Below the pieces are notes generated by a model. It had not been told where the DNA came from. It did no database searches and worked only from the letters and a program-made list of their open reading frames with translations. Made by a program: the position numbers and the translations under genes. From Sphingomonas hengshuiensis (GTDB lineage Bacteria > Pseudomonadota > Alphaproteobacteria > Sphingomonadales > Sphingomonadaceae), in NCBI GenBank assembly GCA_003240755.1, contig QFNF01000025.1, positions 1-63,299 of the forward strand: a stretch of 63,299 nt of DNA, read 5' to 3'. Position 1 is the stretch's first letter. Every line of letters begins with the position of its first letter. Positions 14,286 through 19,281 of this stretch are shown here, piece after piece.

Positions 14286-14361
14286 ACGAGTGTAGCTCAG
14301 CTGGTAGAGCATCGGTCTCCAAAACCGAGGGCCGGGGGTTCGAATCCCTCCACTCGTGCCA
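14286..14361 (+). tRNA. tRNA-Trp (anticodon CCA)
   Basis: A 76-base cloverleaf. The acceptor stem ACGAGTG (14286-14292) pairs with CACTCGT (14351-14357), the discriminator is G and CCA is encoded at 14359-14361. The D arm contains TAGCTCAGCTGGTAGAGC, the anticodon loop reads CTCCAAA with anticodon CCA, and the T arm contains GGTTCGAATCC. A PvuII-type CAGCTG site (14298-14303) falls in the D arm. tRNA-Trp upstream of secE-nusG is a common bacterial order; here a YqaA/DedA-type gene is interposed. Confidence 0.98.
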
Positions 14362-15396: not shown

Positions 15397-15936
15397 ATGT
15401 CGCGCTGGTACATCATTCACGCCTATTCCGGCTTCGAGGGCAAGGTCCGCGATTCGATCCTGACCGAGGCGACGCGCCTCGGCCTCGACCATGCGGTCGA
15501 GGCGATCGAGGTGCCGACCGAGAATGTGACCGAAGTGCGCCGCGGCAAGAAGGTGCAGTCCGAGCGCAAGTTCATGCCCGGTTACGTGCTGGCGAAGCTG
15601 GACCTGAGCGACCAGGTGTACCACCTCGTCAAGAACACGCCCAAGGTCACGGGTTTCCTGGGATCGTCGGGCAAGCCGCAGGCGATCAGCGAGGCGGAAG
15701 CCACGCGGATGCTGAACAGCAAGGAGGAGGCCGCCGCGTCGCCCACCAAGCAGAAGATCAAGGTCGATTTCGAGATCGGCGATTCGGTCAAGGTGCTGGA
15801 CGGCCCGTTCGCGAGCTTCAACGGCGTGGTCGAGGAACTGGACTTCGACAAGTCGAAGGTGAAGGTCAGCGTGTCGATCTTCGGGCGGGCGACGCCGGTC
15901 GAGCTGGATTTCGAGCAGGTGGAACGAAGCAAGTAA
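15397..15936 (+). CDS. nusG: Transcription termination/antitermination protein NusG
   Basis: 179 residues from the ATG at 15397, with AAGG six to nine bases upstream. The NGN domain (MSRWYIIHAYSGFEGKV, ERKFMPGYVLAKL, VTGFLG) and the C-terminal KOW domain (GDSVKVLDGPFASFNGVVEE) are complete. NusG binds the RNA polymerase clamp, suppresses pausing and bridges to Rho or ribosomal protein S10. Normally rplK-rplA would follow in one operon. Here about 3 kb of other genes, including an R-M system, lie between, and a hairpin terminator follows nusG. Confidence 0.97.
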   Translation: MSRWYIIHAYSGFEGKVRDSILTEATRLGLDHAVEAIEVPTENVTEVRRGKKVQSERKFMPGYVLAKLDLSDQVYHLVKNTPKVTGFLGSSGKPQAISEAEATRMLNSKEEAAASPTKQKIKVDFEIGDSVKVLDGPFASFNGVVEELDFDKSKVKVSVSIFGRATPVELDFEQVERSK

Positions 15937-16026
15937 GGCGAAGCCGTCCCGCCCCCGTCATCGGCATGGCGCGGGACGGCGGGCGCATTCCCTGATCGGC
16001 ACCTGCGGCGCAAGGCGGGGCATGAT

Positions 16027-16052
16027 GGGGCAGACCCCCTGCTGCCCCCTTT
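16027..16052 (+). terminator. Possible intrinsic terminator after nusG
   Basis: GGGGCAG (16027-16033) pairs with CTGCCCC (16042-16048) around an 8-base loop, followed by CTTT. A second inverted repeat (CCGTCCCGC with GCGGGACGG) lies just upstream in the same gap. The T-run is short, so strength is uncertain. Its position between nusG and the inserted restriction gene would separate secE-nusG transcription from what follows. Confidence 0.4.
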
Positions 16053-16066
16053 CCGCCATCGCGAAG

Positions 16067-16627
16067 TCAGTCGTTATCCGCCCGGAACGGATCAAGCACA
16101 GGCATCACGGGAACCATCTTGCTGGCGCGAAACCTGATTTCCGGGTCGCAGCCGGCCAGTAACTGTCCGTGTTCCAGGACATAGCCGACCGGTATCTTCG
16201 GATTGTTGATGTCCCTGCCGCCGTCGGAATGCCACTTGCTCTCCTGCTTCGCGAACCACGGCTCTAGCTGCCACGGTTTCATGCGATAAACGGCAATCAA
16301 TTCGATACCGCGATACAGGGCAAAGACCCAGTCGACCTGCCGATATTTCGCAAGAATGACCGGATTCAGATGATGATGGGTCGAAAAATTCTTCGTCAGA
16401 TCGAGATTTACCGATTTCAGCTCATATTCCAGGCCGAGTTCGTCACGCGCATCGTTCCCCTCGCGACCGGGCAATACCGTCAGACCCAGGGTGAGGATGA
16501 CTTGTAGCAGCTTGCCACCATTGTCCTGGAAAATGTCGTTGATGCCGTGCCGTAGCGCCAGCGCCTGAAACTCGCGAATGGCGGGCATCAGTGCGTCCAT
16601 TCGATCCTTGTCCGGGTGCGGTTTCAT
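16067..16627 (-). CDS. PvuII-like type II restriction endonuclease
   Basis: 186 residues. Near-identity of blocks to R.PvuII is recognisable: [55 protein letters not shown] and [16 protein letters not shown]. The PD-(D/E)XK catalytic residues are Asp59 (GND), Glu69 and Lys71 (ELK), one off from Asp58/Glu68/Lys70 of R.PvuII. The expected target is CAGCTG. R.PvuII is 157 residues; this protein has a C-terminal extension of about 30 residues after the YVLEHG segment. The start overlaps the stop of the controller gene (ATGA). Sampled lines are only about 50-57% G+C, unlike the neighbouring core genes, supporting horizontal origin. Confidence 0.95.
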
Positions 16628-16866
16628 GGTGTCGGCTCCGGTGCCAGCAGGGTCGCAGGCCCGACGCCAAGCGCCAGCGCCAGCCTTTCGATATTGTCGA
16701 GCGATATGTTCCGTTCCGCGCGCTCGACCGCACCGACGAACGTACGATGCAGCCCGGCGCGGTCGGCCAGCGCCTCCTGACTTAGTCCTTGCGCCTGCCG
16801 CCGCCGTTTGAGATTAACGGCGAGGATACAGCGAAGGCTGACAGCGTCCGGTGGCATGCGCGTCAT
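16624..16866 (-). CDS. R-M controller protein (C protein, XRE helix-turn-helix)
   Basis: About 80 residues if started at the ATG at 16866; alternatives are 16899 (91 residues) and 16857. The XRE-type DNA-binding fold is clear: [52 protein letters not shown], closely matching C.PvuII-type controllers. Such proteins bind C-boxes, activate their own and the endonuclease gene, and delay nuclease production after entry into a new host. The gene is co-directional with and overlaps the endonuclease gene, and divergent from the methyltransferase, exactly the PvuII layout. No clear Shine-Dalgarno is seen before any start, so a leaderless transcript is possible. Confidence 0.9.
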
Positions 16867-16882
16867 CAACACCGGATGATGC

Positions 16883-16912
16883 AAATGCGTCGACAGCATA
16901 TACGTAGCATTT
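16883..16912. promoter_or_regulatory. Candidate C-protein operator between divergent R-M promoters
   Basis: An inverted repeat AAATGC (16883-16888) and GCATTT (16907-16912) brackets a further GCAT (16896-16899), giving ATGC-N7-GCAT-N7-GCAT with 11-base phasing, about one helical turn. It occupies the short gap between the controller and methyltransferase genes, where C-boxes lie in PvuII-type systems. It does not match the textbook GACT/AGTC C-box, so the assignment rests on symmetry and location only. Confidence 0.4.
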
Positions 16913-16927
16913 TTGGAGATTCGGTCG

Positions 16928-17908
16928 ATGCCTGCCCATTTGGCGTATCACACACATCATGGTGAGGCCTGGCACGGCGACGCGTTGGAACTGCTCGAAA
17001 AACTGCCGGACGGCAGCGTCAATCTCGTAATGACCTCGCCACCATTCGCGCTGCTGCGCAAGAAGGAATATGGGAATGCAGACCAGCGCGACTATATCGA
17101 CTGGCTGACCCAGTTCGCCCGGATCGTGCATCGCAAGCTGACCGATGACGGCAGCTTCGTACTTGACCTGGGCGGTGCGTATCAAAAGGGTTCGCCGACC
17201 CGCAGCCTTTACAATTTCCGGATTCCGATCCGGCTGTGCGACGAAATCGGCTTTCATCTTGCCGAGGATTTCTACTGGCACAATCCCGCAAAACTGCCCA
17301 GCCCCATCGAATGGGTCAACAAGCGCAAGATCCGGGTGAAGGATTCGGTCAATACGATCTGGTGGTTTTCCAAGACCGAATGGCCGAAGGCGGATATTAC
17401 CAAGGTTCTGGCACCCTATAGCGACCGGATGAAGAAACTGCTGGTGGATCCGGCGGCATTCTACAAACCCAAGGACCGCCCGAGCGGCCATGCGATAGGT
17501 ACTGCATTCGGCAAGGACAATGGCGGGTCGATTCCGTCCAACATGCTGCAGATTCCGAATACGGACAGCAACGGAGTCTATCTGCGTGGGTGCCGCAGCC
17601 TTGGCGAAAAGGGGCATCCCGCGCGATATCCGTCAAAATTGCCGGAATTCTTCATCAAGATGCTGACCGATCCCGGCGACGTCGTCGTCGATATCTTTGC
17701 AGGTTCGAACACGACCGGTCAGGTCGCGGAAAATCTGGGCCGGAAATGGCGTTCGTTCGAAGTGAGGCTGGACTATCTCGCTACCTCGGCATTCCGTTTT
17801 CTTGATTCCGACGTGAGCGATGCCGAGCTTCATGCGGTGCATGCCGCCATCCTGGCCGGACAAACACAGGATCTGTCCGATCAGTTCGTCGCCGCCGCGG
17901 CCGAATAG
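16928..17908 (+). CDS. PvuII-like N4-cytosine DNA methyltransferase
   Basis: 326 residues from the ATG at 16928, with GGAG about ten bases upstream. The N terminus YHTHHGEAWHGDALELLE and the catalytic motif TSPPF (36-40) come before the SAM-binding motif VDIFAGSNTTG (Asp255 onward), the order of beta-class amino-methyltransferases. WVNKRKIR-KDSVNT-WWFSKTEWPK-DITKVLAPYSDRMKK is shared with M.PvuII. It should protect CAGCTG by N4 methylation of the inner cytosine. It is divergent from the controller and endonuclease genes and complete, so the module looks functional. Confidence 0.95.
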   Translation: MPAHLAYHTHHGEAWHGDALELLEKLPDGSVNLVMTSPPFALLRKKEYGNADQRDYIDWLTQFARIVHRKLTDDGSFVLDLGGAYQKGSPTRSLYNFRIPIRLCDEIGFHLAEDFYWHNPAKLPSPIEWVNKRKIRVKDSVNTIWWFSKTEWPKADITKVLAPYSDRMKKLLVDPAAFYKPKDRPSGHAIGTAFGKDNGGSIPSNMLQIPNTDSNGVYLRGCRSLGEKGHPARYPSKLPEFFIKMLTDPGDVVVDIFAGSNTTGQVAENLGRKWRSFEVRLDYLATSAFRFLDSDVSDAELHAVHAAILAGQTQDLSDQFVAAAAE

Positions 17909-17980
17909 ACCAACCGGGACGTTCGTCACGGATCGCCCGATCAGCCCCGGCCGTTCTCGGCATGGCCGTTGCCGGTCGCC

Positions 17981-18802
17981 TCACTTCCCCCGCAGCGCCA
18001 TCTCCAACGCCACCTCCCAGCCGCCCGGCTCCCACTGGCTGCGTCGCCCACCCCGCCGCCACTCCAGTTGCGCATGTTCGACCATCCGCATTTCCTCCTC
18101 GGCCAGCAGCAGGCCGGCGCGATAGGCCTTCGCCTTGCGGTCGAGATAGGCGGTGTTGCTCTCGCCGCGCTTCGGGGCGAGGTCGGGGTCGGCGAGGCCC
18201 TTGGCGCGCCGGTCGTTCCACGCGATCATCTGCATCGCCTGCGCCGCCGTCATGGCCGGGATCGGCGGGGGATCGTTGTGTTGCCAATGGTCGTGGACGC
18301 TCGCCTCCGGCAGCGCGCTTTCGAGCAGCGCCGCCTCCAGCCGTTCGGAGCCGACCGCCAGCGCCACGCGCATCTCGCGGGCGAAGCCGGGATGGGCGCG
18401 GGCGCGGGCGTAGAAGCTGGAGTGCGCGAAGCCGGCGGCGGCTGCGGAGAGGCGGACGTTGGCGGTGGCGCTGAGCGCTGCGAGGAAGCGTTGTTCGGCG
18501 TCGCGGTCGATGGTGCGGGTCTTGCCGACGCGCAGTTGCAGGCGACCTTTCGAGCGGACGACGCGCGCCGGCCCCTCCGTCTTGTCGGGCTGGGCGAGGC
18601 GGGCGGCGGCGAGGGTCAGCGCGGCTTCCCAGCGCTGGGCGAAGTCGGGGTCGGCGTTCCTCCGCTTGGTGAGCATCGAGCGGTTGAGACCGGTGACGCG
18701 GGCAGCGTCGCGGGCGTTGCCGGTGCGCTCGAGTTCGGTCAGGAACGCGGCGTTCTGCAGCGCCTGTTTGCGGCTATAGGGGCGTGGCTTGCGATCGGGC
18801 AT
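17981..18802 (-). CDS. Protein with two helix-turn-helix-like repeats, function unknown
   Basis: 273 residues from the ATG at 18802. Two similar alpha-helical units are visible: residues about 10-65 (FLTELERTGNARDAARVTGLNRSMLTKRRNADPDFAQRWEAAL) and about 95-150 (FLAALSATANVRLSAAAAGFAHSSFYARARAHPGFAREM). Each has the pattern of a helix-turn-helix followed by an aromatic-acid segment, reminiscent of phage small-terminase or transposase DNA-binding units. The C-terminal third is Arg/Ala/Glu-rich and unassigned. It lies between the R-M system and rplK, in opposite orientation to rplK. High G+C argues against arrival together with the restriction gene. I cannot name a function. Confidence 0.7.
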   Translation of the reverse strand: MPDRKPRPYSRKQALQNAAFLTELERTGNARDAARVTGLNRSMLTKRRNADPDFAQRWEAALTLAAARLAQPDKTEGPARVVRSKGRLQLRVGKTRTIDRDAEQRFLAALSATANVRLSAAAAGFAHSSFYARARAHPGFAREMRVALAVGSERLEAALLESALPEASVHDHWQHNDPPPIPAMTAAQAMQMIAWNDRRAKGLADPDLAPKRGESNTAYLDRKAKAYRAGLLLAEEEMRMVEHAQLEWRRGGRRSQWEPGGWEVALEMALRGK

Positions 18803-18955
18803 GGCGCCTACCGGATCAGGCGGAATCCTACATTGCAAGCGGGCGGCGTCTGCGCTATGCGCGGCGCTTCCCAAACGACAGTTTTGGAAACCATGGCGGG
18901 AGGTGCCCCGGAAACGGCGCGCCGCACGGACCGCTAAACTTGAAAGAGAGTGAAC

Positions 18956-19277
18956 ATGGCCAAGAAGATTACCGGCTATATCAAGCTGCAGGTGCCGGCG
19001 GGCGAAGCCAAGCCGTCGCCGCCGATCGGCCCGGCGCTGGGTCAGCGCGGCGTGAACATCATGGAATTCTGCAAGGCGCCTCATCAAGCAGGCGATCAAC
19101 CTGAAGTCGGGTTCGAAGGAACCGGGCAAGGTGAAGGCCGGCAGCATCAAGCGGTCGCAGCTCAGCGACATCGCCACGATGAAGATGAAGGATCTGAACG
19201 CCAACGACATCGACGCGGCGACGAAGATCATCGAAGGTTCGGCCCGCGCGATGGGCCTCGAAGTGGTGGAGGGTTAA
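18956..19277 (+). pseudogene. rplK: Ribosomal protein L11 gene with a 110-base internal deletion and frameshift
   Basis: The N-terminal frame from ATG 18956 encodes [37 protein letters not shown] and then abruptly changes. The C-terminal half of L11 ([49 protein letters not shown]) resumes at about 19079 in a different frame, ending at TAA 19275-19277. Compared with a normal 143-residue L11, about 37 residues between Ala40 and the LIKQ segment are missing; the gene spans 322 instead of about 432 bases, so 110 bases are lost and the frame shifts. The N-terminal domain end and the hinge would be absent. This may be a real mutation or an assembly or sequencing error; rplA follows intact. Confidence 0.88.
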
Positions 19278-19281
19278 GACC

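Follow-up and report, generated by a model that had tools for sequence, protein, structure and literature searches.

What is a restriction-modification (R-M) set of the PvuII type doing between nusG and rplK in a Sphingomonas genome, and how long has the lineage lived with it? We have analyzed a stretch of 63,299 nucleotides from Sphingomonas hengshuiensis (contig QFNF01000025.1, hereafter the window) in which an original prediction had placed such a set, describing it as a recent transfer into a core locus. Our analysis points to a complete PvuII-type Type IIP R-M system, timed by a controller protein (C) and located in a nusG-rplK cargo interval, that was probably acquired from a sphingomonad, in a lineage long exposed to a CAGCTG-cutting system; we give this reading a probability of roughly nine in ten. 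The enzymatic activities, the regulatory switch and the age of residence are what we infer by analogy with the PvuII system (PMC2997769) and from the sequence. In such a system the methyltransferase (M) would methylate the cytosine of CAGCTG. A weak promoter would allow slow production of C, which would bind an operator between M and C, activating its own C-R operon and later repressing it. The endonuclease (R) would appear only once the host DNA was protected, and would then cut unmethylated CAGCTG in incoming DNA.

Gene content and identity of the cassette

The complete R-M-C set predicted between nusG and rplK was confirmed at 16067-17908 (Table 1). The three frames are open and M diverges from C-R, which is the layout of plasmid pPvu1 of Proteus vulgaris (NC_002632). 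R, C and M were 69.5, 57.6 and 66.7% identical to their pPvu1 counterparts over 151, 66 and 312 residues, respectively (a second comparison of R gave 62.9% over 175), an agreement that chance could not remotely produce. M matched the M.PvuII structure 1boo (E 1.5e-148), the Pfam family PF01555 and PDLC03323 (E 1.1e-168), and it contains both motifs named in the prediction of an N4-cytosine methyltransferase, TSPPF and DIFAGSNTTG; a TTG at 16913 is an alternative to its main start.

Table 1. Features of the nusG-rplK interval and its surroundings in the window
Feature	Position	Strand	Basis
R, PvuII-type endonuclease, 186 aa	16067..16627	-	PF09225, 1eyu/3ksk, AlphaFold model
C, controller (HTH_3), 77 aa from ATG 16857	16624..16857	-	sequence matches
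Putative C-box operator GCTACGTATATGCTGTCGACGCATTTGCATCA, between M and C	16877..16908	-	aligned position of pPvu1 operator
M, N4-cytosine methyltransferase, 326 aa	16928..17908	+	1boo, PF01555, PDLC03323
Terminase-small-subunit-like HTH gene, 273 aa from MPDR	17981..18802	-	phrog_4044
nusG, left neighbour, 3' part of a longer called ORF	15400..15936	+	PF02357
rplK, right neighbour, lacking 110 bp, frame lost	18956..19281	+	alignment to relatives
tRNA-Trp, carrying the sole CAGCTG of the window (14298)	14286..14361	+	tRNA call

R was matched by PF09225 in Pfam (E 5.9e-63), and by R.PvuII structures (1eyu, 3ksk), with E 3.9e-71 for 1eyu and E 3.8e-143 for a two-domain single-chain form. Its AlphaFold model, built from 29 sequences (mean pLDDT 92.0), had R.PvuII entries as best PDB matches, with TM-scores of 0.95 to 1pvi_A and 1eyu_B (target-normalised) and of 0.89-0.96 when normalised to the ten top single-copy chains. 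The blocks shared with R.PvuII and the three catalytic residues were as predicted: D59, E69 and K71 are the counterparts of the catalytic residues of R.PvuII, D58, E68 and K70, and none of the three varies in an alignment of 29 rows, the first of which starts without the Met. The PvuII-type identity of the system is thus confirmed at the level of sequence and of predicted fold.

A C-terminal extension of about 30 residues had been described as missing from R.PvuII. It is real, starting beyond approximately residue 157 (16067-16150, minus strand), but it is not special, since most of the closest homologues have it as well. The tripeptide DPF was found in the tail of 29 of the 103 homologues with the core motif, drawn from the best 120 of 4799; these 29 include the entry P0001 of the window itself and 16 of the 19 next-best entries (P0002-P0020). 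In close homologues the motif is conserved and [IL]DPFxx[DE][DE]-like. The model predicts neither helix nor strand for the tail, whose mean pLDDT goes from 92 (residues 161-170) to 83 (171-180) and 54 (last five); our guess is that it may act as a short linear motif.

The family is large, with 4799 homologues of R at E<=0.001. R also has matches in 11 plasmid and 5 phage records. When one genome was scanned for each species, 159 loci were confirmed; in the best 80 of them the arrangement M<C>R> was found 72 times; the other 8 were without a match to C and/or M. PvuII-orthologous systems and C-R fusions have already been described (Liang and Blumenthal, 2013; PMC3850674). Nine of the ten systems reported there have C and a divergent M, in the same family and layout, and the section of its Results on identification names no sphingomonad; unlike those fusions, C and R are separate genes in the window. 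The set in the window, which appears to be intact and whose operator is a variant one, is therefore an addition to a kind already known from many members and does not found a new kind. Compared with pPvu1 it is alike in gene order and orientation, protein families, operator position and the presence of a C-R overlap. It differs in its chromosome-like setting, an R that is 29 residues longer, a shorter overlap (4 nt against 23), the half-sites of the operator and a recognition-helix residue of C.

A PvuII-family nuclease was seen at 2468-2992 of locus L005. The five roseobacter-type phage records (H12-H16) carry an R-like sequence 42-45% identical to R of the window, and in phage RcXuper the nuclease is found among replication genes, flanked by an HD hydrolase and DNA polymerase I; none of the 6 features displayed around it is a methyltransferase.

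Around the cassette, flanking repeats were short or imperfect matches with no obvious target duplication (among the 20 largest of 34 direct and the 25 longest of 48 inverted families). Over 15850-19000 no sigma-70-like promoter was found, and terminator-like sites were as many as in shuffled sequence. The neighbouring rplK lacks 110 bp that all six aligned relatives have, and the frame is lost after about 41 codons; either L11 has truly been lost or the assembly is at fault.

The controller and its putative operator

As predicted, a small HTH protein is encoded upstream of R and overlaps it, the stop of C and the start of R sharing the ATGA. The ORF finder started C at ATG 16899. Since this codon sits within the operator, ATG 16857 is the likelier start. 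For the operator we used 85 loci plus the window, keeping the 77 with a match to both C and M and dropping 9. When scored against the consensus GCTACTTATAGTCTGTAGACTTATAGTCATCA, drawn by eye from the same loci that it scores, the M-C stretch exceeded the best of 200 single-base shuffles in 62 of the 77 loci, window included. Of the 15 without an operator match, 2 were Acidobacteriaceae; the other 13, whose titles place them in the Bacteroidota, have a recognition helix of a different kind. The window operator gave 23 matches out of 32 to this by-eye consensus against a shuffle maximum of 19. Its two right half-sites are both TGC, whereas GTC prevails in the family; the operators of Sphingobium sp. 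15-1 and of Sphingomonas sp. NFR15 share this feature. Because both repeats depart in this way from the canonical half-sites, the function of C in the window is not assured.

The controller itself has a Phe in place of the recognition-helix Tyr of C.PvuII; this Phe occurs in 3 of the 77 loci. By ungapped alignment, allowing for the tag of the crystallised chain, it corresponds to position 37 of C.Esp1396I, for which PMC4041747 reports a 3.5-fold weaker binding upon the change Y37F, together with contacts of T36 and R46 with bases of GTC. The equivalents of T36 and R46 are both retained in the window. Within the set of 62 loci that had an operator match, both right-half GTCs were absent from the three Phe loci (the window, L006 and L009, which are related). 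A strict pairing between this Phe and altered half-sites was considered and dropped, because 8 of the 59 Tyr loci were also without both GTCs. We take the Phe and the altered half-sites as a drift of the switch; they do not prove that the specificity is new.

Such a divergent operator would also suit a relic, with genes that look intact in a system that is either inactive or silent; this seems to be the state of the two nearest copies from sphingomonads. These copies contain the closest named relatives of R (82-84% identical), in Sphingobium sp. 15-1 (L006) and Sphingomonas sp. NFR15 (L007, L105 and L119). They have the same kind of variant operator at other chromosomal positions, with C and/or M broken or mis-assembled. 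In Sphingobium 15-1, C and M are each in two frames and R is open. In NFR15 M is in two frames and the C-R pair is interrupted by IS3-like sequence (L105 1-358 and L119 1870-2206, a call made by eye from the translation), its pieces ending near contig ends that bear this transposase sequence. The broken frames in both strains may be assembly errors. Against a relic, the three frames of the window are open and the catalytic and motif residues are all present, and we consider it distinctly unlikely that the set has decayed into silence.

Depletion of the CAGCTG site

The window has a single CAGCTG, inside the tRNA-Trp gene, against 27.1 copies expected over the 63 kb from 5-mers and 4-mers and 21.6 from base composition (Poisson P(<=1) = 4.7e-11 for the former). 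We then counted the site in 18 genomes, three stretches of 20 kb being taken from each (60-63 kb per genome, with the window), including four chosen as known holders; PF09225 was found in 4 of the 18. Observed and expected counts in the holders were 3 and 19.1 (ratio 0.16) in G001, 1 and 14.1 (0.07) in G002, 0 and 16.8 (0.00) in G519, and 0 and 21.6 (0.00) in G272. The 14 non-holders gave 0.58, 0.67, 0.27, 0.79, 0.58, 0.77, 0.78, 0.95, 0.84, 0.24, 0.26, 0.90, 0.83 and 0.64. All five holders, window included, were therefore at 0-0.16 and all 14 non-holders at 0.24-0.95, a complete separation with an exact one-sided P of 8.6e-5, or of 3.3e-4 if the window is left out, in a statistic that ignores kinship. 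Site depletion thus separates holders of the PvuII family from non-holders within one bacterial group, which is relevant to how long the system has been resident.

By itself, avoidance does not prove that a system is resident, because three non-holders avoid CAGCTG too (G055 at 0.24, G066 at 0.26 and G058 at 0.27) and because the window is poor in other palindromes as well. Of the 37 palindromic hexamers expected at least 8 times, CAGCTG is the second lowest and TGATCA is lower still (0 observed, 20.9 expected); CACGTG (1 and 9.6) and GAGCTC (1 and 9.2) are scarce too. The site could then be rare for unrelated reasons, such as a codon or phage-driven bias, all the more as the relatives without PvuII-type genes are also below 1 (median 0.72). 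Such a bias would have to produce the full separation of five holders from 14 non-holders, kinship ignored, and we regard it as highly improbable. The depletion supports, indirectly, a CAGCTG specificity and speaks for a long exposure of the lineage to it. CAGCTC, CAGCTT and similar hexamers are over-represented in the window, but this was discarded as evidence, being an arithmetic result of the missing CAGCTG. The scarcity of TGATCA suggests a second, BclI-like specificity in the host; this hexamer was scarce also in G056 (1 observed, 14.1 expected) and G066 (1 and 22.4).

Origin and age

The cassette was predicted to be lower in G+C than its surroundings, and so it is: R-C-M has 57.6% against 68.5% for the window, and none of 308 sliding 1842-bp windows was as low. 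Its GC3 is 0.69, compared with 0.90 for nusG and 0.89 for rplA. The foreign composition speaks for a gain by transfer at some time, and this part of the prediction stands. Whether the transfer was recent is another matter. A cassette newly arrived from a distant donor, with little effect on the host, would fit the low composition and also the rarity of PF09225, which was found in 2 of the 397 genomes drawn at the level of family, 2 of 396 at that of order and 1 of 385 at that of class; the sets overlap, and G002, the centre of each draw, is counted in each, leaving 1/396, 1/395 and 0/384 besides it. Against such an arrival, CAGCTG is almost absent from the window and the closest named relatives of R come from sphingomonads, at 82-84% identity, with Proteus at 63-70%. 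Site avoidance of this kind has been tied to long residence (PMC4687349). Given the separation of holders from non-holders together with the work of Rusinov et al., a recent transfer is unlikely for the lineage.

Judging by sequence identity, another sphingomonad is a more likely source than a Proteus-like plasmid. The lineage would have had a long exposure to a CAGCTG-cutting system, with the cassette gained from that sphingomonad, and a system of this type has probably been resident in it for long and is not a new arrival. A GC3 of 0.69 against approximately 0.9 fits a long residence awkwardly, and the copy in the window may be a later replacement of, or successor to, an older one.

The two nearest copies, in Sphingobium 15-1 and NFR15, are both located elsewhere, and we found no ancestral position that they share with the window. 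In Sphingobium 15-1 nusG and rplK are adjacent, with a gap of 248 bp, and the cassette is near 1.107 Mb of the same contig. Its match to the window covers 16071-17851 and includes no flank, so that the cassette by itself appears to be what moves.

The nusG-rplK junction

We have compared 38 genomes, among the 100 relatives of G002 listed, in which nusG and rplK are close on one contig; G001 and G002 were added to the 38, and G049, also close, was left out. None of the genomes listed had a nusG DNA identity above about 87%. Between the two genes there were 1.2-12.8 kb of cargo in 28 of the 38 genomes, 143-427 bp in 7, and an inversion in 3. In these last (L155, L156 and L157, from G032, G051 and G021) the block DedA-secE-nusG is inverted with respect to rplK-rplA. 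In several other relatives among the matches listed, nusG and rplK were on different contigs or more than 100 kb apart. The insertion between nusG and rplK is as predicted, but the description of the locus as core is not appropriate for Sphingomonas-like genomes, in which the junction is variable.

Two wider samples give the contrast. An order-level sample of 75 genomes (69 with a match) was counted by hand, taking a NusG identity of at least 68% as a proxy for the family: at or above this value 12 of 19 genomes had the genes split or more than 500 bp apart, and below it 49 of 50 had less than 300 bp, the remaining one having one gene found. A class-level sample of 72 genomes, 66 with a match, was reduced to 60 by leaving out G002, G016 and four one-gene genomes; 54 of the 60 had less than 500 bp, two had 0.9 and 4.9 kb, two had the genes far apart and two on different contigs. 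On these counts the junction is open in the Sphingomonas-like lineage and mostly closed in more distant alphaproteobacteria, and we reinterpret the site as a lineage-specific hotspot. The tRNA-Trp gene, which might come to mind as an att-like site, is found upstream of secE and does not adjoin the insertion. We found no paper, by title or abstract opening, on nusG-rplK as a hotspot in Sphingomonas.

A terminase-small-like gene and defence cargo

The interval of the window also contains a gene whose product matched phrog_4044, a terminase small subunit (E 9.3e-17; longer starts are possible), and had no match in Pfam. Homologues of this gene recur at nusG-rplK in Sphingomonas-like genomes, being present in 6 of 29 cargo intervals (the 28 plus the window), and all six carry a defence-like gene. 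Next to the PvuII set of the window, the partners were a SMODS nucleotidyltransferase (L120), a capP-like M78 peptidase (L124), an AAA_15/AriA-like protein (L130), PDC-S31 (L144) and an MmeI-like Type IIG enzyme (L154), some of the profiles (M78, AAA_15) being generic. In the 23 intervals without the terminase-small-like gene, none of the 72 predicted proteins matched PADLOC at 1e-5, with cargo ORFs picked by length and GC3 contrast, a choice by which AT-rich genes can be missed. With the window excluded, defence genes were present in 5 of 5 intervals with the gene and 0 of 23 without it (Fisher 1.0e-5, post hoc). The PADLOC threshold has a small background, because six arbitrary 12-kb stretches from such genomes (73 proteins) also gave four families, with one member each and a best value of 1.4e-8. 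Two of the intervals, L134 (975-2729) and L142 (1198-3760), hold large cargo proteins with neither a Pfam nor a PADLOC match at 1e-5.

We have followed the gene family to six further loci, where 10 of 52 flanking ORFs were scanned. Defence matches appeared in G032 (PDC-S58/ApeA-like, beside nusG) and in G025 (PDC-M41B, near rplA). None was found in G022 (downstream of rplA), G033 (beside rplK) or the remote copies of G034 and G029, giving 2 of 4 at the locus and 2 of 6 overall. We have moderate confidence that the association between the terminase-small-like gene and defence is real, and its value at this locus as a marker of defence intervals is possibly new. The broader proposal, that nusG-rplK of Sphingomonas is an integration hotspot at which this gene marks, and perhaps brings in, anti-phage defence cargo, is tentative, and we rate it somewhat below an even chance. 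In relatives such cargo would comprise systems of cyclic-nucleotide signalling, Type IIG R-M, an OLD/AriA-like ATPase, ApeA/HEPN-like systems and candidates. The interval looks like a place to find defence genes by position alone. The terminase-small-like family is itself extensive, with at least 710 scored matches from at least 8000 candidates, mostly in Sphingomonas where the organism is given.
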